From the NCBI GenBank assembly GCA_017459635.1, contig JAFUCO010000077.1:1-32750 (forward strand): a stretch of 32,750 nt of DNA, read 5' to 3'. The DNA is from Blautia sp. (lineage in GTDB: Bacteria > Bacillota > Clostridia > Lachnospirales > Lachnospiraceae). Numbering within the stretch: position 1 is the first letter of the stretch; each line of letters begins with the position of its first letter. The notes beneath the pieces were generated by a model. It saw nothing but the letters and a program-made list of their open reading frames with translations. It searched no databases and was not told the DNA's origin. The position numbers and the translations under genes were made by a program. This document shows, one piece after another, positions 12,879-31,545 of the stretch.

Positions 12879-13631
12879 TTATTGTTTTAAAATATTCAGT
12901 ATCTTTTTTTTGTACTCCAGAAACTCTTCTGTCAGCGAAAAATCTTTCCGCTCATTTCTTTTTACGCTTATCCTGATCTCATCATCTATCCGTCCAGGTG
13001 ATCCTGTCATGATATAAACGCGGTCTGACAGCATCAACGCCTCATCTATGTCATGAGTTATAAAAATAGTGGACAGATCGATCCGGCTCATAATATCAAG
13101 ATACCAGTCGTGCATCTGGCCTTTGGTTATCATATCAAGTGCTGAAAAAGGCTCATCCAGCAGCGCGACTCCCTCTGAACCAAGATATGTTCGCAGAAGA
13201 GCTGCCCTCTGGCGCATTCCACCTGAAAGCTGCGACGGGTACTGATACTCTGTACCCGCAAGTCCGAACTGCGCAAAGTATGGAGCCGCTGTCCTTCGTG
13301 CATCCGCTTTTTTTGCTCCGCGTATTACCAGTGGAAGCGCCGCATTATCAATGATCTTCTTATGTGGAAGAAGAAGATCCTTCTGGAGCATATAGCTGAC
13401 CTTTCCAGGCTTCTCCGTAATATCCTCACCGGAAAGCATTACCCGGCCGCTGTCCGGCCGCACAAGTCCTGATATAACCTGAAAAAGTGTTGTCTTTCCT
13501 GATCCGCTGAGCCCCAGCAGAGACACAAGCTCACCTTTTTCAAGCCGGATACTGATGTCTTCTATTATCATCCGTCCGTCATAGGACTTTGAAATATGTT
13601 CTGTGCGAAGCAGAGAACTGTCTGCTGCCAT
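12879..13631 (-). CDS. thiZ: ABC transporter ATP-binding protein, thiamine-precursor uptake
   Basis: 250 aa from ATG 13631. This is the nucleotide-binding subunit driving import through the ThiX permease at the membrane. Walker A is GLSGSGKTTLF, the signature is LSGGMRQRAALLR, Walker B is VALLDEPFSALD, and the switch His lies in IFITHDIDEA. The start is chosen for the strong GGAGGAGG site just upstream; an ATG 22 codons earlier extends the frame but has no better signal. It is last of four genes behind a TPP riboswitch. On its own the sequence also fits nitrate/taurine-type importers; the riboswitch and the neighbouring THI5-like protein decide the role. Confidence 0.82.
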   Translation of the reverse strand: MAADSSLLRTEHISKSYDGRMIIEDISIRLEKGELVSLLGLSGSGKTTLFQVISGLVRPDSGRVMLSGEDITEKPGKVSYMLQKDLLLPHKKIIDNAALPLVIRGAKKADARRTAAPYFAQFGLAGTEYQYPSQLSGGMRQRAALLRTYLGSEGVALLDEPFSALDMITKGQMHDWYLDIMSRIDLSTIFITHDIDEALMLSDRVYIMTGSPGRIDDEIRISVKRNERKDFSLTEEFLEYKKKILNILKQ

Positions 13632-13875
13632 CAGGTATTCCTCCTCCCTGAAAGCACTTTCAGATGCCGACTTACTGTTGTTCTTCGGGGGCATCATACT
13701 TTGTCTCCGTTATAAAATGAAGCACTTCCCGCAGCACGCTGCATAGGTACAGCCTGTCTTGCAAAATGTGTTAAGCAGCAGGCTGCGGGGAATGATCCCT
13801 GAGAGATTCAGGTTATTTACTCTCCGCCTGAATTGACAGAAGCCAGGCTCAAATTCCTCAAGCCGAAGCTGAACT

Positions 13876-14874
13876 TCATTCAAGATAGTCGTTAGAATAA
13901 CCGATTCCGCTCAGGTCATGCTCTGTCAGGCCGTTCTTATAAAGCCATCCGTAAAAGCCGTCCCATCTGGCAGGATCAAACACACCCCATGAAGAGGCAT
14001 CCGCAATATACTGTCCGCTCAACCACTCCTGGCTTGCATAGACAAGATCCTGTGAACCGGTAAGAGAGCCTGTCTCATCTCCTTCGATGAGAAGATCCGC
14101 CGCTTCCTTCGGATTCTGCACGGCATATTCATATCCCTTCGCTGTAGCTCTGAGAAAAGCCTTTGCAGTTTCGGGAGATTCCTCAAGGAAATCATTGTTG
14201 GCAAGGATTACCGGCGTGTAATAATCAAGCTCAGATGTGATGTCGCTGAAATTCCAGTAATCACAGTCCACGCCTTCCTGTTCGGCATTTATTCCGCTCC
14301 ATCCATAGAATACCCATACCGCATCCGTCTGGTTGGCTGCAAGCGCCGCCGGCTCATCGGTAATGTCATTTGGTATAAGCGTAACCTTGTCAAAGTCGGC
14401 CCCTTCCTGCTCCATGCAGTAGCGGATCATAGCCATCTCAATAGGACTCTCCCAGGTCGAATAAACCTTACCCTCAAGGCCCTTCGGTGATTCTATTCCG
14501 TCCCCCGCTCTTGACAGGATTCCGGAAGTATTATGCTGAAGAATAGCCGCAACCGCAGTCACCTCAAGCGGTTCTTCAAGGTCAAGCGAAGCCGCCATTG
14601 TATCCTGAGCATCCACCGCGAATTCAGCCTGTCCGGCTGCACACATAAGCACCGAACCGTTTTCAGGCGGCTGCACAATCTCTACATCCAGCCCCTCTTC
14701 TTCATAATACCCAAGAGCCTTTGCGGCATAGATTCCCGTATGATTGGTATTAGGTGTCCAGTCAAGGCAGAACGTGATCTCTGTCAGATCATCTTCTGCA
14801 AAAACTGCCGGAGAAAAACCTGCAGCTATAGCTGCTGCTGCAAAAACCGCGGTGACCATCTTTATTTTTCTCAT
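13876..14874 (-). CDS. thiY: THI5/NMT1-like substrate-binding protein (thiamine precursor)
   Basis: 332 aa from ATG 14874. It has an N-terminal signal peptide (MRKIKM, then a hydrophobic Ala-rich core ending near VFAED) and no lipobox Cys, although substrate-binding proteins of Firmicutes are usually anchored. The mature part begins with the family motif LDWTPNTNHTGIYAAKALGY, diagnostic of the NMT1/THI5-like group that binds hydroxymethylpyrimidine-type thiamine precursors. A long ligand-binding two-lobe body follows (about 300 residues). The site GAAGG lies about six bases before the start. The gap to the upstream permease gene is 261 bp and contains a REP cluster, unusual within an operon. 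Confidence 0.85.
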   Translation of the reverse strand: MRKIKMVTAVFAAAAIAAGFSPAVFAEDDLTEITFCLDWTPNTNHTGIYAAKALGYYEEEGLDVEIVQPPENGSVLMCAAGQAEFAVDAQDTMAASLDLEEPLEVTAVAAILQHNTSGILSRAGDGIESPKGLEGKVYSTWESPIEMAMIRYCMEQEGADFDKVTLIPNDITDEPAALAANQTDAVWVFYGWSGINAEQEGVDCDYWNFSDITSELDYYTPVILANNDFLEESPETAKAFLRATAKGYEYAVQNPKEAADLLIEGDETGSLTGSQDLVYASQEWLSGQYIADASSWGVFDPARWDGFYGWLYKNGLTEHDLSGIGYSNDYLE

Positions 14875-16452: not shown

Positions 16453-16489
16453 TTCATTTTACAGAATAGGAAAATGATTATATATATAT

Positions 16490-16582
16490 CCGGTATACTC
16501 GCTTCCCTACGCCGGTATTGCCCGGATCAGGTAATGAGGGTCCTGTAAATATACATTCTCAGCTTTCGCTCCCCTAGCAGTT
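16490..16582 (-). promoter_or_regulatory. TPP riboswitch (THI-box aptamer)
   Basis: Read on the minus strand it contains the hallmark runs AGGGGAGC, GCTGAGAATG, ACCCTCATTACCTGATC, and GGCGTAGGGAAGC in the correct order and spacing. This is the conserved core of the TPP aptamer. It is followed by a terminator and a thiamine-uptake operon, so the operon should be switched off by TPP. Confidence 0.95.
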
Positions 16583-16588
16583 ACTGTG

Positions 16589-18126: not shown

Positions 18127-19176
18127 TTACATCCCCACTTCCAACATTACAAAGTCTTCAAATCTCGGCAGCGCGATCTCAATTCGTGCACGACCGGTCT
18201 CACGGATGATCCCGCTGCTGACGAGTCTCTTTTTATAAAGATAAAGCTGTTGAGGGCTGATCTCCATCAAACTATGGAGTGCAGATATGTCTTTTATATC
18301 ATTAGCCGCTATAAGGATGATTATCTTCTGATCCAGATCAGACAACTCAGACCACACTTTTTCATAGACATATTCACTAAGATACTGATCAAACTCCGGA
18401 ATTACATCCTGAAGCAAAGTACCTTCCCCATGCTGCCAGTACAGGTATCCAAGAACCTGAAAAGCAAATGAGTATCCCTTTGTAAGGCGTGTCATGGACG
18501 CAGCCATATCATTTGATATGTCAAAAATTTCTTTGTATGCAGCCTTTACAGCAGCAGGATTAAGAGGTTCCAGCTTTACTTTTGGAGCCCGGTATAAAAA
18601 GGTCAGAGTTTTGACATTCTGGATATTCTGTATATTGTCATAAAGGCCGGTCATTAAAAGAAAAACCGGAAGGTTTTCCCGTATCAGGATCTGAAACGTT
18701 GCAGCAAAAACGCGGATATGTTCCGTATTGGATACTTCATCCACAGCGATCAGTACTTTCTTATTATGTTTTGCTATCTGTCGGAGCATCTGCTCTATGG
18801 CATTTTCTATGTCAGTAACCGGAACAGTATTCTTTGCAGAAACACCCAGTCCGAAAGCTGAGAAATTCAGTTCCGCTTCAGAAAAAATCTTTTTGTTTCC
18901 GGGTACATCGTATAGCTTAGCTGCAGTAGACTGCAGCATATCACGGTCGGGATTCAGATTAATTACTATCCATGAAGGATCTTCTTTGAAAGAGTTGCAG
19001 ATTTCAGTCATCAGCACTGTTTTTCCGGATCCCCGGATACCTGTTATCATATAAACCTGACTTGAAGGCAAATCCGATGTCCAGTCTTCCATAATCTGGT
19101 TTTTCTGAGATACTCTGTTGATATATCGTGCCGGTGTTTTTCCAAATGAGATAGTAAAAGGATTGTTTTTTCTCAT
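18127..19176 (-). CDS. AAA/STAND-like ATPase with C-terminal winged helix (paralog 1)
   Basis: 349 aa. An N-terminal NPF-x-I-SFGK-xP motif precedes Walker A (GIRGSGKT, 46-53). Walker B is VLIAVDEV (141-148), and a sensor-like LLMTGL segment follows near 178. The C-terminal third looks like a winged helix (DISALHSLMEISPQQLYLYK then RLVSSGIIRE). It resembles the archaeal-ATPase-like, ORC/AAA group of stand-alone ATPases common in Firmicutes; the cellular role is unknown. It is a clear paralog of 30412-31488 with the same motif order. The start is ATG 19176 with GGAGAGG upstream. A strong promoter and an A/T iteron leader precede it. It is divergent from the SH3 peptide gene. Confidence 0.8.
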   Translation of the reverse strand: MRKNNPFTISFGKTPARYINRVSQKNQIMEDWTSDLPSSQVYMITGIRGSGKTVLMTEICNSFKEDPSWIVINLNPDRDMLQSTAAKLYDVPGNKKIFSEAELNFSAFGLGVSAKNTVPVTDIENAIEQMLRQIAKHNKKVLIAVDEVSNTEHIRVFAATFQILIRENLPVFLLMTGLYDNIQNIQNVKTLTFLYRAPKVKLEPLNPAAVKAAYKEIFDISNDMAASMTRLTKGYSFAFQVLGYLYWQHGEGTLLQDVIPEFDQYLSEYVYEKVWSELSDLDQKIIILIAANDIKDISALHSLMEISPQQLYLYKKRLVSSGIIRETGRARIEIALPRFEDFVMLEVGM

Positions 19177-19298: not shown

Positions 19299-19351
19299 CG
19301 CTCAGTTCCATCCGCTGATCGTCCGGAAAGGGCATAAGAATGACTGATAAG
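19299..19351 (-). pseudogene. fragment of a Uma2-type gene
   Basis: 19303-19327 is identical to 20541-20565 inside the intact Uma2 gene, and similarity continues to about 19351. On the minus strand it reads PDDQRMEL, matching the Uma2 segment. It has no start and no further domain, so it is a decayed remnant of a second copy. Confidence 0.75.
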
Positions 19352-19533
19352 TTTGAGGAACATTCTAAAGTTACTTTTTATTGTCATTTTTTGGTCACTT
19401 TTAATTTCCGGTTCCCCGTGGATTCTCCTTTAATACTCCGTATGTAAATATGTAAGATGAAAAACAAACACAAAAAAACAAATAATAAAAACAATTTCAA
19501 CTTAAAAAATATAAAAAACGGAGGATTAAAACA
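19352..19533. other. A/T-rich leader and upstream region of the SH3 peptide gene
   Basis: 182 bp, strongly A-rich in the last 80. It holds the GGAGG site (19521-19525). A clear -35/-10 pair could not be identified. Confidence 0.4.
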
Positions 19534-19827
19534 ATGACAGATATGAATAAGATCAACGATATGGAACTTACAAACGTAGCAGGTGGTAACGGTGCTCCGG
19601 GACAGTGTCTGCATCTTGCACAGCCGTGTGTACAGAGCGGTTACCTTGCACTTCGCACTCAGCCGGCTTATAACGATGCCAACGAGATCGCACAGATCTA
19701 TCCGGGAAACAGATTCTATGTAGACCTTAACCAGTGCACATGCGGCGGCGGTTATACCTACTATATGGCAAACTACAATGGTTGCTGTGGATGGGTAAAC
19801 GCAAGCTACGTAACACTCCTTGACTGA
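19534..19827 (+). CDS. double-glycine-leader peptide with SH3 domain
   Basis: 97 aa. The first 18 residues (MNKINDMELTNVAGG region) have the form of a bacteriocin-type double-glycine leader: polar, with EL-x2-V before GG. Cleavage after GG18 would leave a 79-residue product. That part carries a bacterial SH3-type fold: GYLALRTQPAYNDANEIAQI, then a YVDL strand and the terminal GWVNASYVTL. It has six Cys, including a CTC pair and a CC pair, which fits disulfide formation after export. Ribosome site GGAGG is nine bases from ATG 19534. A hairpin terminator follows. No C39-type exporter or immunity gene is in the window. The likely role is a secreted cell-wall-binding or signalling peptide; this is inference. 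Confidence 0.72.
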   Translation: MTDMNKINDMELTNVAGGNGAPGQCLHLAQPCVQSGYLALRTQPAYNDANEIAQIYPGNRFYVDLNQCTCGGGYTYYMANYNGCCGWVNASYVTLLD

Positions 19828-19847
19828 TAACCATACAAATCAATATT

Positions 19848-19904
19848 GAGTCGGACAAAGCCCTTGCTGTGAAGTAACCATTATTTGCAGCAAGGGCTTT
19901 TCTT
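19848..19904 (+). terminator. hairpin terminator of the SH3 gene, copy A of a 57-bp repeat
   Basis: AAAGCCCTTGCTG (19857-19869) and CAGCAAGGGCTTT (19888-19900) form a 13-bp stem followed by a T-rich tail. The whole 57-bp block recurs at 31642-31698 with 50 of 57 positions identical by eye and the stem fully kept. Confidence 0.85.
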
Positions 19905-20057: not shown

Positions 20058-20861
20058 TCAGAGTCTTCTGGCTACCCGTGAAAAATCGATGGAGCATTTT
20101 CCTTCGGAAATTCCTATCGGAATCACTGAATCAAACCCGTAAATCGTCGGGGTATAGTCCTCCTCCTGCAGCATATGGACGATCACGTTTCTGTTTTTTG
20201 GATCCACTATCCAGTACTCACGCACTCCGGCATTCTTATATTTGTAAAGCTTGAGTATCATGTCCTTGTGCCTCGAGGAGGGTGAAAGGATCTCAACTGT
20301 GAGATCCGGGGCACCTTCGTACCTTATGGCATTTGAGTCATACTCATGGCAGATCACCAAAAGGTCAGGCTGAACCATAGTATAATTGTCCTTGTCAAGC
20401 CTCACATCACAGGGCGAGAGATAAACATCACAGTGCGGAGCATGCTTATCAGTACATTCCCGGAACAGAATATGTAATTCTCCAAGAATTTTCTGGTGCG
20501 TCATCGACGGAGCTCCCATATCATACAGAACACCATCGATCAGTTCCATCCGCTGATCGTCCGGAAGAGCATAATAATCATCTATCGTGTACTTTTTACG
20601 GGGAGATGTCCCATACGCTACTCCCCCCTCCCTCAGCGTGTCAGCAGAATATGTATAAGGCCCGGCATAGGAGAACGGCCTCTTCGCGGCTTCCGCGATC
20701 AGCACTCGTTCTATCGCCTCCAGCGTGTCCTTCCTGGGTGCCTTAGTCCTGCCCCCAAACAGCTTTTCAACAGTGCTTACCGGAACCCCCGAGGCTTCGG
20801 ATATCATCTTACTTGTAAGTCCAAGTTCGATCTTCTTCGCCTTCATTTCCTTTAATGTCAT
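20058..20861 (-). CDS. XRE helix-turn-helix fused to Uma2-family nuclease domain
   Basis: 267 aa. Residues 1-55 form an XRE-type helix-turn-helix (MISEASGVPVSTVEKLFGG as recognition part). Residues 90-265 are a Uma2 (DUF820) domain of the PD-(D/E)XK nuclease superfamily: YYALPDDQRMELIDGVLYDM at the start, the VQPDLLVI Asp at 166, Glu190 in DLTVEILSPSS, and GVREYWIVDP later. Function of Uma2 proteins is not settled; they are frequent in multiple copies. The DNA-binding fusion suggests self-regulation or a sequence-targeted nuclease. The start is ATG 20861 with AAGGGGG. A strong promoter is upstream. A decayed copy of the Uma2 part lies at 19299. Confidence 0.82.
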   Translation of the reverse strand: MTLKEMKAKKIELGLTSKMISEASGVPVSTVEKLFGGRTKAPRKDTLEAIERVLIAEAAKRPFSYAGPYTYSADTLREGGVAYGTSPRKKYTIDDYYALPDDQRMELIDGVLYDMGAPSMTHQKILGELHILFRECTDKHAPHCDVYLSPCDVRLDKDNYTMVQPDLLVICHEYDSNAIRYEGAPDLTVEILSPSSRHKDMILKLYKYKNAGVREYWIVDPKNRNVIVHMLQEEDYTPTIYGFDSVIPIGISEGKCSIDFSRVARRL

Positions 20862-21169: not shown

Positions 21170-24100
21170 TCAAAACATCAGCTCCATCTGCCCCTCATCA
21201 CTGCTTACCTGTATCCTGGCTGTGCTCAGCACCTCCGGTTCATTGCCGGAAACGTGCTTCCCTCTCAGATACTGCGCTTTATTCAGAACTGATTCGACAA
21301 GGTTTAGGACATAAATATTATCAAATCGATTGTAGATAGATTCTCCTCCTAGTCCCGTAAGGCATATCAGCTGTGTATTGTTTTTCTTTGCAACCTCCAT
21401 CATCGGCTTAAGCAGATGTGACGCGTTGGTCTGGGCAAACGGATTATCCATAAGCAGCACCTTGCCTTCATTCCGGTCCGCAAACAGGTCTGTTTCATCC
21501 CTTCTCATATAATACAGCAGACTGGACAAAATGATAAAAGCCGATAAAAAACCTTCCCCTCCGGAATTCCTTGCCACTTCGCTCCAGGAGATCTGTATTT
21601 CGCGCATGGCCTCTATCTTATAAAGCTGTATCCTCACATTTGCCACACCGACTGCCGCATCATAAAGCTCTCTGGTCGTCATACGTTTTCCGACGAAATC
21701 ATGCAGGGAACCGTTTTTATCAAGCAGAGAAATTCCCTTAAGTGTCAGTTCATCTACAAGATCTTCTATTTTACGCTGATAAATACCCTCATTTTCATCC
21801 CATGAGGGAAGAATTATCCTGAGCATTTTAAGAGATTTACCCCGGACAGTCACACCTGAATTACGGTCTATCCTCCCCATCTGCGAATGAACATCCGCTG
21901 CATATTCCTTTAAAGCGGCAACCACCTGCATCCGTTCCTGTTCAACCACGGATATATCAACCATCAGCTTCGCCATAAGGTCACGGTAAGACTGAAGGAC
22001 TATATCAAGCTGCCTCAGTACCTGCCCGGCATCTGTCGAAAGAGCAGATATTGTTTCCAGCGGTTTGCGATAATAATCATCCTGAAATTCTTCCATAAGC
22101 AGTATCTGCTGCAAAGCCTTCTCCAGCCTGCCCTGCTGTAAAGCAGCTGTATCTACTGCATTATGGTATTCTTTCTGCAGCTTTCCCGTAAGATGGCGAA
22201 AATCCTCTTCTTTAAACCGGTCAAAGTCCCCTGTGGCAAATACAGGTTCCATTACCGGAACATCCTGATATTCAGAAAGAGCAGTCTGATTTGTCACATA
22301 TACTGACACTCTGTGAGATATCTGCTCGACACGGTCAGCATGATCCTTTTTCTTATGAACCAGCAGTCTCTTCTGCTCTGCATAATTGATAACCTGAACC
22401 TCTTCCCTGTCAAGAGGCGTCATCGTCCCACAGTCCCGCTGCATTGCTTCAAGATTCTTCTTCTGCGATTCTTCCCTTTTTCCGCATTCAATTTCGAGCT
22501 TGTGTTTTTCCCCTGTTATATCCTTAATGCTGCGATTCAACATCCCGGCTCTCTCTTCCGCCAGATCATGCTCCGCGGCACTGTACTTTATCCCTGCCCA
22601 GTCCTCCGGCGAAAAACCATATTTCGATGCCCGTCGCTTTAATTCCTTTTCAGTCTTTGTAAGCCTTTCCCCCGCTTTCTTTTTATCTGCCTGAATTTCC
22701 TTCTCCTCGTGAGATATATTCTCCGTGATTGCTTTAAATCTGGCTGTCAGCGCCTGGTAATCATCAAGTATTTCCGAACTTATGCCTTCCGGGCATGGCG
22801 ACTCCTGATATATGTCGTAGTCTTCGGCCTGCTTCCTTATCTCAGCTTCTTTCAGCTGTTCCTCCATCCTCTTAGCCTCCAGGCTCCGAATCTCGCTCTC
22901 CGCTGACTCCAGATCTGCCTGCAGGGTTTTCTTTTCTCTGTCAAGTGCACTCAGCTTTTCTTCACATTCTCTCAAGGCCTGCATGTTAACAAGACAGCGT
23001 TCATAACTATTTGTTAATTCCCCCAGTTCCCTCTTCTCGCGATTCTTATCATCAAACCTTCTCTGCAGTCCTGCAATTTCATTTTCCAGCTGTTTAAGAA
23101 AGCTCTGCTCCTCCTTTATCCTGTCTTTGGCTGAAATCTGTTCCTCTCTTATCTTTATGAGCTGTTCCTTCAGCTCGTCTATCGAGGATAAGCATTCCTC
23201 ATAGGCAGCTTTTGAAACTGCCTGTTCTCCTATTCTGGATCGCCGCTCCAGATACTCCTTCATCTCTTTTCGTTTACGGTCGGTCTCTTCGATCCTGCGG
23301 TCTTTCTCATGACGCTTCCTTGCAAGGATCTCTTCAAGGCGTTCCTCATTCAGAAGATCCTGATTGAACATCATGTAAAAATGTACACCGGATCTTTCTG
23401 CTGTCTCATCCTCCTGTACCTCATAATTATCAGCAAGACTCTCTCTTGTCACAACCGGAACCGGCGTTGATGTATAAATATGAATATCTGAATTCCGGAA
23501 TTTTTCAAACTCCTTCTCTGTCATAAGAAGCGCATAAGGAAGAAAGGGATTCTTCTCCACCAGAATCAGATTTTCTTCTTCACTCTTGCCGTTTCGCTTA
23601 AGCCATTCCATGCCATATACATAATTCAGTCCAAGGCTTTCAAATGCATCCTTAAGCTCCGGAGTAAGCTCCACTGTCTGCCCTGTTGTCAGCTTATGTA
23701 TCTCATCCTCAAGCTCCTTTGCTTCAATAGTTCCTTTTTGAACCGAAAGATCAAGTTCCATGATCTTTGCGTCCGCCGCCTCAAGGATCCTTTCTTTATC
23801 AAAAAGAACTTCCTCCCTCAGTTCAAGATATTGAAGCACGGTTTTTCGATATATTATCTCATCCTCGTATTCCGCAAGGCTTTTCTCCGCAGCTTTCAGC
23901 TTTTCTGTTTCTGATATTCTTGCTTCTTCCCGGAGCTGCACAGCATCCTCCAGTTTTCGGATCAGGCTCTCTGTGTCACTCTGAGTAGCGCGTTTTGCAG
24001 AACGCTCTGATGCTATCCCTTCCAGTTCCCTGTCAAGATTATCAGCCATGACAGTAAGACATCCAGGTTCATACTGCCCAAGAATATTGCGGGTCAGATC

Positions 24101-25591
24101 AGCCTTCCAATGAGAAACATATCTCTCTTCTTCTATGTCATACGCCTTAACGAGAGCGCCCAGCTCTCCTCTTTTCTGTACGGCAGTACGGATTTCCCTT
24201 TCTGCTTTTTCCAGATATTCGTAAATACCCTTCTTTTCTTCGGTTTTCTCCTTAATGGCCACGTCAACGCTGTCAAGCGAAGAGACGGCAACTGCAAGCT
24301 CCTCCTCAAAATGTTTTCGGAGAAGATATCCTATATATTCACGTTCCGGCTTAAGGTCCTCCCCCCGGCGCCTTAGGACTTCCAGCTTCTGCACCGCTGC
24401 CTGATAATCCTCCGCAGCTGTGTCATATTGCTCCTGCCGGTCTGCAATATCCAGAAGATTCAGCCTTCGTATGTTTTCTTCATACTGCTGTTCTGTTTCC
24501 AGAAGCTCCACATTCCGGGCATCTGTCTTTTTATGCAGAAGATCGATCTCATCCTGCGCGGCATAATAATCTGCCGAATGTTTCAGATGATCTGTCAACC
24601 GTATCTTCTCCTCAAGTTCTTCTATAAAAGCCTTTTCGGATGCAGTCTCTTTCTCCGCCTCCTCTCGCATTTCCTGAAGCACCTGCAGATATGAAGCTAT
24701 TTCATTTCTCTTCTCATTACTGTTACACGCAGCCTCCCGGTATAAACCGGCGTTCTCCCGGATTTTTGCCGCCTCTTCCTCGAAACGGAGGATTATATCC
24801 CTTCGTTTTATCTTTGCCTCATTGCTGCGATAACCTGCAATATACTTCTCCAGGATTTTCCGGAATTCCTCCATACGGTTCTGTTCACGGTTAAGCTTAT
24901 TCTCTATTGTATCCAGGAACCATTTTTCCACCAGCCCGCGTTCATCCCTGCAGTCTGCAAAAAGCTTCGAAAGTCCTGATTCTTCCTCATTGACCTTTTT
25001 TATGATATTCTGCCATTCCCGATAATTGATACCATACTCCAGCAGCTTTTCAAAATACTGCCTTGCCTGGGCAGCATTATTCATGTCATAGCTGAAAAAC
25101 CTTATACCGCGGTCACGTTTGTAATCATCAAAAAGCCCCCTGCATTCAGCAAAGCTCTTAAGCCTGTACTCATCCCTGTCCCTGGTAACAACAGGCAGAT
25201 GACACAGGTCCTGCATACATGGCTCCTTGTACTCACTGATAAAGTTTATCATCTCAAGCTCATCGTCATTTCCCTCTCCCGGCTTCTGGTTCTGGCGAAC
25301 CATCATTCCGGTCAGGACAAACCCGGCACGCTGCTCCAGTATCCATTCTACCAGTATGAAGGTCGGTTTGTTTGATGTAAAGTAACTGTAAAAAGGACGT
25401 TCTTTAGTACTGCGATATCGTTTTTGTACAAAAGGAGCAGTGATCATCTGAACAAGGACCGACTTTCCACCTCCGTTATCCAGATTGATCAGCGTACTCT
25501 CCCCATTAAAAAACATGGTCTCATCACTCACACGTATCGTATTGTGATTATAATTGAGGTTGATGAACCTGACCGCGTTGATCTTACTCAT
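21170..25591 (-). CDS. jetC: Wadjet JetC, SMC-like ATPase
   Basis: 1473 aa SMC/MukB-like motor of the Wadjet system, which recognises and helps cleave small circular DNA such as plasmids. Walker A is DNGGGKSV (38-45). Long heptad-rich coiled coils (about 250-620 and 790-1200) surround a globular hinge near 640-780 (NPFLPYALLMTEKEFEKF). The signature is SGGEGF (1343-1348). Walker B reads VLLMDNPFAQTN (1378-1389), with Asn directly after the Asp where classical SMC/MukB proteins have Glu. The gene overlaps jetB by 8 bp (ATGAGTAA) with GGAGGACAGG before the start. Last gene of the operon. Wadjet subtype is not type I-like by size; II or III cannot be separated by eye. Confidence 0.93.
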   Translation of the reverse strand: MSKINAVRFINLNYNHNTIRVSDETMFFNGESTLINLDNGGGKSVLVQMITAPFVQKRYRSTKERPFYSYFTSNKPTFILVEWILEQRAGFVLTGMMVRQNQKPGEGNDDELEMINFISEYKEPCMQDLCHLPVVTRDRDEYRLKSFAECRGLFDDYKRDRGIRFFSYDMNNAAQARQYFEKLLEYGINYREWQNIIKKVNEEESGLSKLFADCRDERGLVEKWFLDTIENKLNREQNRMEEFRKILEKYIAGYRSNEAKIKRRDIILRFEEEAAKIRENAGLYREAACNSNEKRNEIASYLQVLQEMREEAEKETASEKAFIEELEEKIRLTDHLKHSADYYAAQDEIDLLHKKTDARNVELLETEQQYEENIRRLNLLDIADRQEQYDTAAEDYQAAVQKLEVLRRRGEDLKPEREYIGYLLRKHFEEELAVAVSSLDSVDVAIKEKTEEKKGIYEYLEKAEREIRTAVQKRGELGALVKAYDIEEERYVSHWKADLTRNILGQYEPGCLTVMADNLDRELEGIASERSAKRATQSDTESLIRKLEDAVQLREEARISETEKLKAAEKSLAEYEDEIIYRKTVLQYLELREEVLFDKERILEAADAKIMELDLSVQKGTIEAKELEDEIHKLTTGQTVELTPELKDAFESLGLNYVYGMEWLKRNGKSEEENLILVEKNPFLPYALLMTEKEFEKFRNSDIHIYTSTPVPVVTRESLADNYEVQEDETAERSGVHFYMMFNQDLLNEERLEEILARKRHEKDRRIEETDRKRKEMKEYLERRSRIGEQAVSKAAYEECLSSIDELKEQLIKIREEQISAKDRIKEEQSFLKQLENEIAGLQRRFDDKNREKRELGELTNSYERCLVNMQALRECEEKLSALDREKKTLQADLESAESEIRSLEAKRMEEQLKEAEIRKQAEDYDIYQESPCPEGISSEILDDYQALTARFKAITENISHEEKEIQADKKKAGERLTKTEKELKRRASKYGFSPEDWAGIKYSAAEHDLAEERAGMLNRSIKDITGEKHKLEIECGKREESQKKNLEAMQRDCGTMTPLDREEVQVINYAEQKRLLVHKKKDHADRVEQISHRVSVYVTNQTALSEYQDVPVMEPVFATGDFDRFKEEDFRHLTGKLQKEYHNAVDTAALQQGRLEKALQQILLMEEFQDDYYRKPLETISALSTDAGQVLRQLDIVLQSYRDLMAKLMVDISVVEQERMQVVAALKEYAADVHSQMGRIDRNSGVTVRGKSLKMLRIILPSWDENEGIYQRKIEDLVDELTLKGISLLDKNGSLHDFVGKRMTTRELYDAAVGVANVRIQLYKIEAMREIQISWSEVARNSGGEGFLSAFIILSSLLYYMRRDETDLFADRNEGKVLLMDNPFAQTNASHLLKPMMEVAKKNNTQLICLTGLGGESIYNRFDNIYVLNLVESVLNKAQYLRGKHVSGNEPEVLSTARIQVSSDEGQMELMF

Positions 25592-26297
25592 CCTGTCCTC
25601 CTAAAACACTCATCACCCGCTCATAATTTACTTTATTCAGCAGGTTCCAGTCCATAAAATGATCCAGCTTTCTGGTTGTTTTTATCATTTCATCCTGCTC
25701 TATATATTCTATCAGACCCTGCATCTGAAGGAAGCGCAGGATATGATACAGAAATCCTTCTTTTGTCGTTTTCTGGCGGGATCCCTGATCACCGGAACGA
25801 AGAGCCTCATATGCCTGCAGCATCTGCGTAAAAGCGATGCCGCAGTTTTCCTGCTGGCTTTCATCCAGCCTGTCCGCCCCTTCCTTCAAATGCTCCGAAA
25901 TGCTGTTCTGAAGGTCTCCTACGCGTATATAATCACGGGTTTTACTGCTGCTGCCCTGCCCGTCAAAAAACTCCAGCAACAGTACCAGAATGGAAAACTG
26001 CGCCAGATAATAGTCACTGTCTTTTGCATTGCTGCGGCAGAGTTCTTTCTTCAGCTGAGCCTTGGAAAAACCCAGAAAGCGGTTCTGGTTCCCCGGGATT
26101 ATGTAGATAACATCGCCGTAACGCTCTATGGCACTGTCTGATATTTCACCCTGCGATTTTACCAGATTCTGCACTGACTCATTTTCAATATACATTTTAT
26201 AAAGCTGCGGCGCATCCTCTTCCCGCAGCTCATGATGCTCCAGAAGATAATAGAATATCTCCTGGCTGGTCCTCACTTCATCAAACTCATATGCCAT
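25584..26297 (-). CDS. jetB: Wadjet JetB, small accessory (kite-like) subunit
   Basis: 237 aa, a soluble, helix-rich protein of the size and position of JetB (DUF4194/DUF6063-like). In the Wadjet complex this subunit bridges JetA and JetC, analogous to MukE. The N-terminus (YEFDEVRTSQEIFYYLLEHH) and the winged-helix-like C-terminus (FLYHILRFLQMQGLIEYIEQ) are visible. The ATG overlaps the end of jetA by 11 bp, and jetC starts within its last codons, so the three are translationally coupled. Assignment rests on order and neighbours as much as on sequence. Confidence 0.88.
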   Translation of the reverse strand: MAYEFDEVRTSQEIFYYLLEHHELREEDAPQLYKMYIENESVQNLVKSQGEISDSAIERYGDVIYIIPGNQNRFLGFSKAQLKKELCRSNAKDSDYYLAQFSILVLLLEFFDGQGSSSKTRDYIRVGDLQNSISEHLKEGADRLDESQQENCGIAFTQMLQAYEALRSGDQGSRQKTTKEGFLYHILRFLQMQGLIEYIEQDEMIKTTRKLDHFMDWNLLNKVNYERVMSVLGGQDE

Positions 26298-27915
26298 CTG
26301 CCCGATCCTCTCTGATGCTTATAACTACATCTGAACATCGTATAGTACGAGTCTCTGTACGGTTTTCCTGTATATTTTCAAATATGACAGGAGGCCTTCC
26401 CGATGCCTTTTCAATAAATACTGCTGTGATATTATAATAGTCCGGATTTTCGCCCAGTATTTTAAGGATCATATCATTCAGCCGGAAATCGCCCGATTCT
26501 TCCTGGATATAGTCTGCTTTTTCCTTCTTAAGAGCTCTGACATCAATTGCTCTTGCTCTCAGAAGCTCCACCATAACTTCTTTAAAAATATTTACGTCCG
26601 GAATCAGCTGCCTGATTTCCGCCTCTCCATTTAAACCGTCTTTGATTTCTGATAAAAAAACAGCTTTTTTCTCAATTGCCGCGCCAAGAAGCAGCTTCAG
26701 GCATTTTTCATACTTCTGAAGCTTGTTTCTCCTCCGCTGTTCCTGCTCGGTTCTCCAGGCTTCTTCATCAAAATCCATATCCACTGTACTGTCTGCCTCA
26801 TCCTCAGAAAAGGATGCCTTCTGAGGCTCAAAAGCTTTATTCAGGTTCAGTATGCGGTCCGGATCCCGGTTAAAAAGAGGATGAAAAAACAATTCCAGAC
26901 GGCTCAGGCTTTCCGGATTTTCAAGGATCCCGTCGTACAGGTCAGTCCGGAGATTGAAACGCTTTACCAGCGACATCTCTGCTATCTTTTCAAGTTCATC
27001 TGTATATAGCGATTTCAGGTCAAAGTGACCGTTAAGGATCTTCTGGTGCTCATCTATCGCACGGCTCAGATACACTTCGATCTCCCGGAGGTTCCTGAGC
27101 TTCTCTTCATCATCCGTATCAAGTGCCCTTACATCGATCCGGGTTTCCGTCAGCTCCTTCACCCGGCTTTTTACCGTTTCCCGGTATCCCCTGAATTTAT
27201 CCCTTGTATCTGTGATCGTATCCAGATCTTCTTTAAGGAGCTTCTCATAATCCGACACACTATAATCCAGAACATTCCGCCTTATACGGCTCATCGCTTC
27301 CTGAATCTTCTGAATCTGTATTCGCATCAGATTAAATACGTTTTTTATATCATCAAGGGCCTTATCATAGCTCTGCTTTTCCAGGTGCATGCGAAAGATC
27401 ATCTCCTGAATCGTGAGCTTCATATTGTTCTCGACTTCCAGTGTTCCCAGCAGCAGATTATAACCGTCATCCGTCAGATAATACGAAGTACGGCGCGTTT
27501 CCTGCTCAAGATAAACTATCCTGTTTGCCACATAGCTGATATGGATCTGCTGCCATTCCATAGCGTCAAAATCATAACCCCGGAAATACATGGGCTTCCC
27601 CTCATTCGAAAGGATATTGTTGATAATATAATCCGCAAGGTCATGACAGTCCTGATATGTCATAGGTTTTTGGAAATACCGCGAATTAATGCTGTCGATG
27701 AATGCGCTGATGTCATCGATCATACAGGGGTCTTCCTTAAGCGACTGCTCCATAACAAACAGCATTACAGCAAAATCCATATTAAGCTGCTCATAAAGCT
27801 CATCAAATCCAAACTGCTTCCAGATTGATTTCTGGCTGCTGTTGAAGAACAGAAGCGCGTAAAGCCCGACATTCTTCATCCTCTTAGAAAAAGCCTTCAG
27901 GAATTCATATTGCAT
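26287..27915 (-). CDS. jetA: Wadjet JetA, kleisin-like subunit
   Basis: 542 aa from ATG 27915 (MQYEFLKAF), chosen because GAGG lies six bases upstream; a GTG four codons earlier is inferior. Its N-terminus is winged-helix-like, followed by long helices (about 180-310) and an acidic region near 375-400. This matches JetA of the DUF5716-type, MukF-like kleisin that links the JetC heads. The stop overlaps the start of jetB. A 103-bp gap separates it from jetD. Confidence 0.88.
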   Translation of the reverse strand: MQYEFLKAFSKRMKNVGLYALLFFNSSQKSIWKQFGFDELYEQLNMDFAVMLFVMEQSLKEDPCMIDDISAFIDSINSRYFQKPMTYQDCHDLADYIINNILSNEGKPMYFRGYDFDAMEWQQIHISYVANRIVYLEQETRRTSYYLTDDGYNLLLGTLEVENNMKLTIQEMIFRMHLEKQSYDKALDDIKNVFNLMRIQIQKIQEAMSRIRRNVLDYSVSDYEKLLKEDLDTITDTRDKFRGYRETVKSRVKELTETRIDVRALDTDDEEKLRNLREIEVYLSRAIDEHQKILNGHFDLKSLYTDELEKIAEMSLVKRFNLRTDLYDGILENPESLSRLELFFHPLFNRDPDRILNLNKAFEPQKASFSEDEADSTVDMDFDEEAWRTEQEQRRRNKLQKYEKCLKLLLGAAIEKKAVFLSEIKDGLNGEAEIRQLIPDVNIFKEVMVELLRARAIDVRALKKEKADYIQEESGDFRLNDMILKILGENPDYYNITAVFIEKASGRPPVIFENIQENRTETRTIRCSDVVISIREDRADGI

Positions 27916-28018
27916 GATATACCTCACATAAACAGGTTTAAAAGGACCATTCCCCTTGAACAGTCCTTAATCTGAAACTCTCCTTGCATGACCAGGCACC
28001 GGATCACTGCCGGAAGCT

Positions 28019-29008
28019 TCACCCCTCAAGATAATCACTGGCGTTCAGAATCTCCTGTGGAATGTACCGCCCGCTTTCCAGTATATTCTTCATCCTGCAA
28101 AGTGTCGTTTCATCAAAAAAAGAGAAAAACAGCCCCTTATTATTCCGGTTCTGATGTTCCTTTGTGTATGGAAGCGTCAGGGCCAGATCTCCCTTGTCAA
28201 GCATGGCAAGGTAAGCCGGAATGAACGGGCTTATCTGTCCTTCAGAAGAAAAAGCTTCTGCAAGTGTTTCATATATCATTATTCCTTCATAATCCAGATC
28301 CCCAAAATACAGGAGTTCATTCCCTTTGCTTTTCATATAAGGTTCAGCGCTTATCCCGAATTCACGAAAACAGCTGTTCACCCTCTTGCCTGCTCCATAG
28401 ATCAGTGTACCTATCTCTGCTCCAAGCAGACACTTGTTTCCCTCAAGTAAAAATCTCCTCATTCCAAAAAAAGGATCCTTGTTTTCCACAATAAGCAGCT
28501 TCTGAGGAGTCTTGCGATGCAGCGCAAAATATGCAAAAGGCTCAGCGGTGTTATAGATATTAAGAGTCTCCTCTTCTATCCCGCAGCGTTTAAGTATCCT
28601 TCTGCCGAATCCACCGGTCAGATACTTTTCTTCTCCCCATATCTCAAAACTTCTCTCATTTCCGGAAACCGGTACAGACAGCTTATTACTGTCTTTCTGG
28701 AGGAAATCCGAAAGGCGCCTGACATAATCCCTGTCGCGGTCATAAGCATCCAGGTGATTAATATAGTAATCTACATCTATCTGCGGATCTGTCCTGTACA
28801 AAAGCTCTTCCTTCCATTCGGAATAATCCGGCTTCTCCTCAATAAGCCAGTACATAGTATAAAGCGCCGGCTTCTTTCCGTTCCCGGGAGAGCTTTTCAC
28901 AGGCTTTATCTCGCCTTTATTTAAAAGGCCGCAAATATACCTGTACTGACTGTCATAAGAGTCCCTGATGCGCTTCCCAAGTAAATCTTCCAAGGTACAT
29001 TTCTTCAT
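28019..29008 (-). CDS. jetD: Wadjet JetD, toprim nuclease subunit
   Basis: 329 aa. JetD is the DNA-cleaving subunit, related to topoisomerase VI/Spo11 (DUF2220). The toprim metal site is visible: E175 in LLIVENKDPFF and the GDLDYEG motif (236-242, D237 and D239). An N-terminal DNA-binding (winged-helix-like) half precedes it. It is the first gene of the operon. ATG 29008 has AAGGA about nine bases upstream. A TTGACA box lies about 70 bp upstream without a good -10. With intact active-site residues in all four genes, the system looks functional. Confidence 0.9.
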   Translation of the reverse strand: MKKCTLEDLLGKRIRDSYDSQYRYICGLLNKGEIKPVKSSPGNGKKPALYTMYWLIEEKPDYSEWKEELLYRTDPQIDVDYYINHLDAYDRDRDYVRRLSDFLQKDSNKLSVPVSGNERSFEIWGEEKYLTGGFGRRILKRCGIEEETLNIYNTAEPFAYFALHRKTPQKLLIVENKDPFFGMRRFLLEGNKCLLGAEIGTLIYGAGKRVNSCFREFGISAEPYMKSKGNELLYFGDLDYEGIMIYETLAEAFSSEGQISPFIPAYLAMLDKGDLALTLPYTKEHQNRNNKGLFFSFFDETTLCRMKNILESGRYIPQEILNASDYLEG

Positions 29009-30381: not shown

Positions 30382-30413
30382 AATGACATTGGAACCGTCC
30401 CCATGGTTACATT
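30382..30413. repeat. REP-like element at the 3' end of ATPase paralog 2
   Basis: AATGACATTGGAACCGTCCC followed by CATGGTTACATT. The TAA stop of the ATPase (30414-30412) overlaps its end. It shares the AATGACATTGG arm with the element at 111. Confidence 0.8.
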
Positions 30414-31488
30414 AGTAGTGTTCTTCTTCGTATGTCCGGCGTACAAATTCATCGAAATAAGGCAGTGTAAAGGAAACAATCCCCCAACTGTCTCCTTTTA
30501 CGAGGCCTTTCTTAATCAGCCTTTTCCTGTATGGGTTGAATTCATCTTTACTCAATCCAAGAATCTCTCTGGCTTCCGCTGTCCTATGGTTTTGTGCCTT
30601 CGCAATTCCATAAGCAACAAACCGGTCTTTCTGCGACAGCCGTTCCCAGATGATATCATAGACATAATCATATAATCTGGCTTTCCAATCCTTCCGCACC
30701 GCTTCTGTATATTGGCATTGATTTTTCCAGGTAAAATAACCAATCAACTGAAAGGCGTATGGATAGCCCTTTGTTTCCCGGGCCATTTCCAGTGCAGCTC
30801 CAGAATCAATTCCCAATGTCTCTTTATAATCACACTGAATCTGCTGAATCTGCAAAGGCTCCATAACCAGCTTAGGTGCTCTGTACAGAAAAGTAAGATT
30901 CTTTACGTTCTGCAGTTCTTCTATATTTTCAGACAATCCTGTCATCAACAAATAAACAGGAAGATCATCACGGATATATAATTGAAAAGCACTGGCAAAT
31001 GTCACCATCTCCTTTGACTTAATAATCTCATCTATCGCAATTAATACCCGTTTGTTCTGTCTTTTGAGGCTCTCCAGCATTTTTTTCAATGCAATTTCAG
31101 GATTACTGATTTTGGGTGCTCCGGATACTTCCAGACCTACTCCAAAAAATGACAGGTTGATGCTTGCATTCTGAAAAACCCTGGCTAATGTTTTTTCGGC
31201 TGCCAGCGCAGAAATAATCTTATCGAGAATGTCGCCATCTGAACTGATACTGACAACAATCCAGTCTTCCTGTCTTTTAAAAAATGCTGTCGCGTCAGAT
31301 AGGAAAACTGTTTTACCTGATCCTCGCACTCCTGTGATCATGTAAACCTGTATCATCGGTTCGGGCGCCGTGTAATCATCCGTAACCTGACGAAGCTGTT
31401 TCTCACGCCGAATATTACGGATTGGCTCTTTTCCAAACATAATAGAATATGGGTTCATTTTTATCGCCAGAGATTCCCGTTTTTCCAT
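30412..31488 (-). CDS. AAA/STAND-like ATPase with C-terminal winged helix (paralog 2)
   Basis: 358 aa from ATG 31488 (AAGGAG nine bases upstream; the TTG seven codons earlier is less likely). Walker A GVRGSGKT (53-60), Walker B VLIAIDE (148-154), and the shared stretch LLMTGLSENIEELQNVKNLT and FLYRAPKL. The C-terminal winged helix includes EILGLSKDEFNPYRKRLIKK. It matches 18127-19176 over its full length, but at the level of an old duplication. Own promoter and iteron leader. Role unknown; membership of a defence or regulatory system is a guess from its position next to Wadjet. Confidence 0.8.
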   Translation of the reverse strand: MEKRESLAIKMNPYSIMFGKEPIRNIRREKQLRQVTDDYTAPEPMIQVYMITGVRGSGKTVFLSDATAFFKRQEDWIVVSISSDGDILDKIISALAAEKTLARVFQNASINLSFFGVGLEVSGAPKISNPEIALKKMLESLKRQNKRVLIAIDEIIKSKEMVTFASAFQLYIRDDLPVYLLMTGLSENIEELQNVKNLTFLYRAPKLVMEPLQIQQIQCDYKETLGIDSGAALEMARETKGYPYAFQLIGYFTWKNQCQYTEAVRKDWKARLYDYVYDIIWERLSQKDRFVAYGIAKAQNHRTAEAREILGLSKDEFNPYRKRLIKKGLVKGDSWGIVSFTLPYFDEFVRRTYEEEHY

Positions 31489-31545
31489 ACCGACATACTC
31501 CTTTTCCAATCCAACTCACAGTGATTTCTATTTTACTCGCGCAAA

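Follow-up and report, generated by a model that had tools for sequence, protein, structure and literature searches.

The closest functional precedent for the gene described here is probably MAM of Faecalibacterium, a double-glycine-leader protein of gut Bacillota that is reported to be found in the cell envelope and not to be a bacteriocin, and for which an ABC transporter with a peptidase part has been proposed as the exporter (PMC12184118, PMC8836110). The likeness appears to be one of logic, namely a non-bacteriocin double-glycine protein, export by an ABC-peptidase and a place in the envelope. Compared by its description only, MAM differs in having three helices and another leader motif, and in adjoining its transporter in most species, whereas the family studied here has an SH3-like body and an NHLM-type exporter to which it is mostly unlinked.

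Precursors of the NHLP/Nif11 type were inferred via their co-occurrence with the export genes TIGR03794/03796/03797 (PMC2887384). They too have a double-glycine motif, occur in several copies per genome and are often not adjacent to the exporter, but their leaders are long and related to NHase or Nif11, and their cores are hypervariable, with many modifiable residues (PMC2887384); the product of our gene, P0001, has an 18-aa leader and a conserved SH3-like body. The biofilm proteins of Synechococcus elongatus are likewise small, contain a double-glycine motif and have a role other than that of an antibiotic; they are however cyanobacterial, and an SH3 domain is not mentioned in the accessible portion of the report (PMC4997328). 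Finally, the Pfam SH3_3 proteins of the genus, including Sec-type tandem-SH3 proteins, share the domain subtype (~37-45% identity to the tandem protein of contig C25, a Sec-type protein of the same genome with four SH3 matches), while P0001 differs from the tandem proteins by its single domain and by a double-glycine leader instead of an N-terminal Sec-type signal. Our searches of the open-access literature turned up no description of an SH3 domain behind a double-glycine leader.

A short gene with a double-glycine leader and an SH3-like body

The gene lies in a contig of a Blautia sp. genome, the whole analyzed stretch of which (32,750 nucleotides) is called the window below. Its features are as follows:

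19520..19524, + strand: ribosome-binding site GGAGG, nine bases 5' of the ATG
19534..19827, + strand: double-glycine SH3 gene (open reading frame), product P0001, 97 aa
19534..19587, + strand: 18-residue leader ending in GG, from the C39-substrate consensus positions
19588..19824, + strand: predicted mature protein of 79 aa, 8.6 kDa, pI 4.8, with six Cys, given the inferred cleavage
19642..19812, + strand: SH3-like domain (residues 37-93), from a sub-threshold match to Pfam SH3_3, with relatives over or near the cut-off
19857..19904, + strand: intrinsic terminator, a 17-pair hairpin with a T-rich tail, from its folding energy against shuffles

The consensus of C39-substrate leaders is I/L/V(-12), E(-8), L(-7), V(-4) and GG (PMC12184118, PMC6363468, as given there), and the leader of P0001, whose GG forms residues 17-18, agrees with it at 6/6 positions: Ile(-12), Glu(-8), Leu(-7), Val(-4), Gly(-2) and Gly(-1). 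Of the 126 ORFs of 50-200 aa in the window, P0001 alone matched the pattern [ILVM]xxxE[LM]xx[VI]xGG, and the same pattern appeared in 0/100 first-order Markov versions of the window; the leader therefore stands above chance. No strongly hydrophobic Sec-type stretch was seen in the first 40 residues (top 15-residue hydropathy mean 0.66). The terminator hairpin (19857-19900) folds at -31.1 kcal/mol (z -6.2), with none of 200 shuffles equally stable; a simple terminator scan with a loop limit of 8 gave no site there; the loop of this hairpin is longer than that limit.

From P0001 itself, the SH3 assignment is weak: the match to Pfam SH3_3 (PF08239) spans the domain but reaches only 12.8 bits (E 0.14) against a cut-off of 27. 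The relatives suggest it more clearly, since a paralog in the same genome (contig C88) scores 27.6 bits, two family members of genome G081 score 35.8 and 36.4 bits, and a 20-row family profile reaches E 2e-17 against a Sec-type tandem-SH3 protein from the genome of P0001. A Pfam scan of 10 family proteins gave no match whatever for two of them, and the best hit of the family profile in the PDB was only E 0.022. Searches with P0001 against NCBIfam (a sole, sub-threshold match) and against PDB sequences (mainly antibody chains, best E 0.011) returned matches that we judged to be chance. The preliminary description of this DNA had listed six Cys, a leader of the double-glycine type before an SH3 body, and the gene's own ribosome site and terminator; these features are confirmed, with the SH3 call leaning on relatives.

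The six Cys (positions 25, 32, 68, 70, 84 and 85) probably form disulfides or a metal site. They are specific to the P0001 branch, as none is present in close relatives in G431 (62% identity) and G434 (57% identity). A named genome collection contained one match, from an uncultured Blautia MAG. It is a 3' fragment, its 5' end lying beyond the contig edge, that includes the Cys pairs and is 86% identical over residues 61-97; going by this match, the host would probably be a relative of Blautia within the Lachnospiraceae.

Members and distribution of the family

The gene was originally described as an orphan, which is true only locally. Its own genome, a MAG of 2.67 Mb in 109 contigs (66.8% complete), contains a second intact double-glycine SH3 gene on contig C88, near an NHLM-type exporter, with 40% identity to P0001, as well as a decayed copy on contig C40 in which the leader is kept and the SH3 region is interrupted by stops. 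The decayed copy (L041 4580-4951, - strand) has a short tandem repeat behind its leader, and a further double-glycine ORF with a repetitive tail lies 2 kb away on the same contig (L041 6961, + strand).

The family recurs in other genomes. A leader-weighted profile found leader-bearing genes in 8 of 64 genomes of the genus, with 14 matches at 75 bits or more; below these, at 54.5 bits or less, came mainly tandem-SH3 proteins without the leader positions. P0001 scores 119.6 bits against the family profile, which includes P0001. In the sample of the taxonomic family, double-glycine SH3 genes were present in 5/397 genomes, and in the order sample, which overlaps the taxonomic-family and genus samples, our genome was the sole carrier among 295. 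No match was found in plasmid and phage collections at E 0.01, and these collections therefore give no sign of a mobile element.

Homologs with the same leader plus SH3, which the preliminary description had proposed to seek, thus exist and keep the leader: GG is found in 26/27 of the collected sequences and SG in 1/27, a count that is not independent because members were found partly via the leader. E(-8) is present in 17/27, L(-7) in 23/27 and V(-4) in 22/27 of this set, which includes the decayed C40 copy and a tentative G431 gene (see below). An SH3 tree, midpoint-rooted and without support values, hints at at least two SH3 lineages with the leader, and we did not rely on it. In genome G081, 12 family matches are spread over 9 contigs; several are at contig ends, and some perhaps represent one gene twice.

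NHLM-type exporters and their co-occurrence with the family

Nothing in the window ties the P0001 gene to an exporter, and no exporter adjoins it. Searching the whole genome for C39 peptidases gave three matches, all on contigs other than that of the window, so that the earlier remark that no exporter is nearby holds and the suggested C39 peptidase-ABC transporter elsewhere in the genome is present. Two of the three matches are full exporters, each an NHLM ABC1 (TIGR03796; 901 and 898 bits, cut-off 853) adjoining an ABC2 (TIGR03797) that scores just below the cut-off of 709 (708 and 685 bits). Each exporter locus also has a short HlyD-like gene whose match to TIGR03794 is confined to the beginning of the model (27 and 36 bits, cut-off 156; N-terminal 46-53 of 421 positions); a full-length TIGR03794 HlyD partner was found in neither locus. 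The third C39 match (contig C83) is a 172-residue protein with no ABC part in frame. P0001 gave no match to the NHase- and Nif11-type leader models TIGR03793 and TIGR03798 (NCBIfam). The paralog on contig C88 is located 5.7 kb from the ABC2 of one exporter locus:

C88 2137-2436: double-glycine SH3 paralog
C88 3777-4253: short HlyD-like gene
C88 8136-10325: ABC2
C88 10375-12810: ABC1

The proposed C39-type export of P0001 is plausible, with cleavage and export as inferred steps. In the model that we favor, and to which we give a somewhat better than even chance, an ABC exporter of the NHLM/NHLP type (TIGR03796/TIGR03797), whose genes lie elsewhere in the genome, would recognize the leader and cut P0001 after Gly18 with its C39 peptidase. 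The SH3-like protein of 79 residues would then leave the cell through this exporter and act at the envelope of its producer. Recognition and export are the steps that carry most support.

Across the genus, the exporter was found in 8/8 SH3 carriers as compared to 21/64 genomes overall (Fisher 4.6e-5, genomes treated as independent). The count of 21 consists of 19 genomes over the cut-off plus two that were added by hand, G413 (840 bits) and the contig-split G399; by the curated cut-off only, the exporter is in 7/8 carriers and 19/64 overall (5e-4). In the taxonomic-family sample it was found in 4/5 carriers and 41/397 overall (4.6e-4), the 41 being made of 35 over the cut-off and six hand-added at 692-853 bits; two candidates were scored per genome here, and the exporter counts may thus be low. 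Without our own genome, 3/4 carriers, all of other genera, have the exporter (p = 0.004). Genomes of one genus are kin rather than independent, and the carriers of other genera are less exposed to shared ancestry.

These caveats bear on the alternative that the leader serves another route or is a relic, in which case P0001 would not be an NHLM substrate and the co-occurrence would reflect common ancestry or a shared habitat. The genus counts indeed treat related genomes as independent, the genes are scattered, the C40 copy is decayed, and one carrier, G010 (93% complete), has two double-glycine SH3 genes and no C39 exporter at E 1e-10. However, the consensus positions of the leader are kept across the 27 members, the exporter accompanies the genes in three of the four carriers of other genera, and a C39 search of ten other carriers (excluding G458, which was found later) gave matches in 9/10, every one inside an NHLM ABC1 (in G399, a contig end leaves only the first 240 residues), so that these nine genomes have no C39 peptidase besides that of the NHLM exporter. 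We consider this alternative unlikely.

Linkage to exporters and gene neighbors

Export by the NHLM system would also be consistent with linkage in some genomes. In G422, one contig carries an SH3 gene and, 7.3 kb away, a short HlyD-like gene; this contig and our C88 both hold a divergent ABC-2-type transporter gene (74% identity between the two). The ABC1 genes of G422 are on other contigs. In G431, a double-glycine gene lies 250 bases upstream of a HlyD-ABC1-ABC2 run on the same strand. The cargo of this operon matches the SH3 family by hhalign (88%, E 3e-6) when the leader is included and has nothing significant in Pfam; since neither its leader alone (10.8 bits) nor its SH3 part alone (12.9 bits, E 0.025) is significant, we call it SH3-like only tentatively.

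Most exporter loci are without SH3 cargo. By our own reading of 55 exporter loci that include ABC1, a double-glycine ORF lies within 5.5 kb on the same strand in ten (L144, L157, L172, L174, L175, L178, L181, L188, L202 and L203), among which only L157 has SH3-like cargo. When 66 exporter loci were searched with the profile, SH3 members were recovered only in L040 (the C88 stretch with exporter and paralog), in L238 and, weakly, in L157; L238 is an SH3 contig of G458, included in the same set, and not an exporter contig. In L040, two SpoIIE-domain proteins are encoded at 122-1909 and 13226-14860, and G398 has a similar SpoIIE-domain protein after its exporter (50% identity).

No neighbor gene is common to most of the 22 SH3 loci that we compared. 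A first comparison of shared neighbors showed no more than one pair, from G399 and G422, and clusters that looked like chance; a further genome then revealed a Sec-type protein downstream. In 4/22 SH3 loci (G458, G399, G422 and G374), the next gene on the same strand, 36-167 bases downstream, codes for such a Sec-type modular protein, with the Sec-type start judged by eye. These proteins form one mosaic family, the first half of the G458 protein being ~43% identical to that of G374 and its last part 38% to those of G399 and G422, and the G399 and G422 proteins contain an SH3_3 domain (50 and 52 bits). Relatives of the modular proteins occur in 8/8 SH3 carriers as compared to 13/64 genomes of the genus, a test that is partly circular because the query was picked from the neighborhood of an SH3 gene; when the three genomes that show adjacency are left out, they occur in 5/5 carriers and 10/61 overall (4e-5). 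The relative in our own genome is on another contig, C44.

Selection and the possible role of the exported protein

The mature part of the protein shows dN/dS of 0.07-0.24 in 10/12 pairs. Synonymous change is saturated in two of the pairs that include P0001 and nearly so (dS 3.6) in a third, so that selection on P0001 itself is poorly measured; leader dN/dS reached 1.1-1.2 on few sites in two G081 pairs, and the leaders are too short to judge. The mature domain is thus under purifying selection in the measurable pairs, which favors a kept function over an arms race.

This result bears on the possibility that P0001 acts as a bacteriocin-like toxin, leaving the cell through the same exporter and aiming its SH3 module at the wall of competitors. 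Its leader is of the type found in class II bacteriocins, the leaders of relatives give sub-threshold matches to Bacteriocin_IIc, and G081 holds many divergent copies (12 matches on 9 contigs). Yet the mature part is acidic (pI 4.8) and conserved by purifying selection, no catalytic domain is attached to it, and no immunity gene was recognized in the window or as a gene common to the 22 SH3 loci, immunity proteins being short and variable. The cell-wall toxin raised in the preliminary description therefore finds no support, as no immunity candidate was recognized and purifying selection acts on the mature domain where measurable, and we regard it as improbable. A secreted signal sensed by the producers is very unlikely, for although double-glycine peptides are reported to include signals (PMC7018657) and two SpoIIE-domain proteins are encoded near the C88 paralog, a folded SH3-like domain is unusual for a signal and no receptor gene recurs beside the loci.

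Among the earlier proposals, a wall-bound protein seems to fit best. If the NHLM exporter releases P0001 as we propose, its SH3 module would most likely bind the envelope of the producer itself, through peptidoglycan or some other ligand in the wall, and the protein might work alongside Sec-exported proteins with related SH3 modules; the type of the SH3 domain and the existence of these Sec-type proteins both point to this step. A broader and more tentative possibility, which we hold to be less than probable, is a three-part system in which the NHLM exporter, the multi-copy single-SH3 proteins exported unmodified, and the Sec-exported SH3 modular proteins together build or decorate a surface layer; in that case, NHLM systems would export folded structural proteins besides modified peptides.

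NHLM/NHLP exporters are known mainly for modified peptides, and their presence here tracks a family of unmodified-looking SH3-like proteins. If our model is true, the cargo range of these exporters would be wider than known, and P0001 would join MAM as the second example of a double-glycine protein exported to serve the envelope of a gut bacterium. Genome mining that equates a double-glycine leader with "bacteriocin" may mislabel such genes.

Surroundings of the gene in the window

A complete Wadjet-type JetD-A-B-C set (21170-29008, - strand; JetD3, JetA3, JetB3 and JetC3 by PADLOC, 375 to 1713 bits) starts 1.3 kb from the SH3 gene. In G399, a JetD gene 74% identical to that of the window (L134 6993-7961, + strand) is 2.3 kb from a double-glycine SH3 gene, possibly by chance. 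Between our SH3 gene and the Wadjet set lies a Uma2-like gene (20058-20861, PF05685), a piece of which (20541-20577) recurs upstream of the SH3 gene at 19302-19338, perhaps as the remnant of a second copy. A TPP riboswitch (16487-16585, - strand; Rfam RF00059, 67 bits) is apparently placed ahead of ABC uptake genes, and two paralogous ATPases with 38% identity (18127-19176 and 30412-31509, - strand), the first of which matches PF01637, flank the region.
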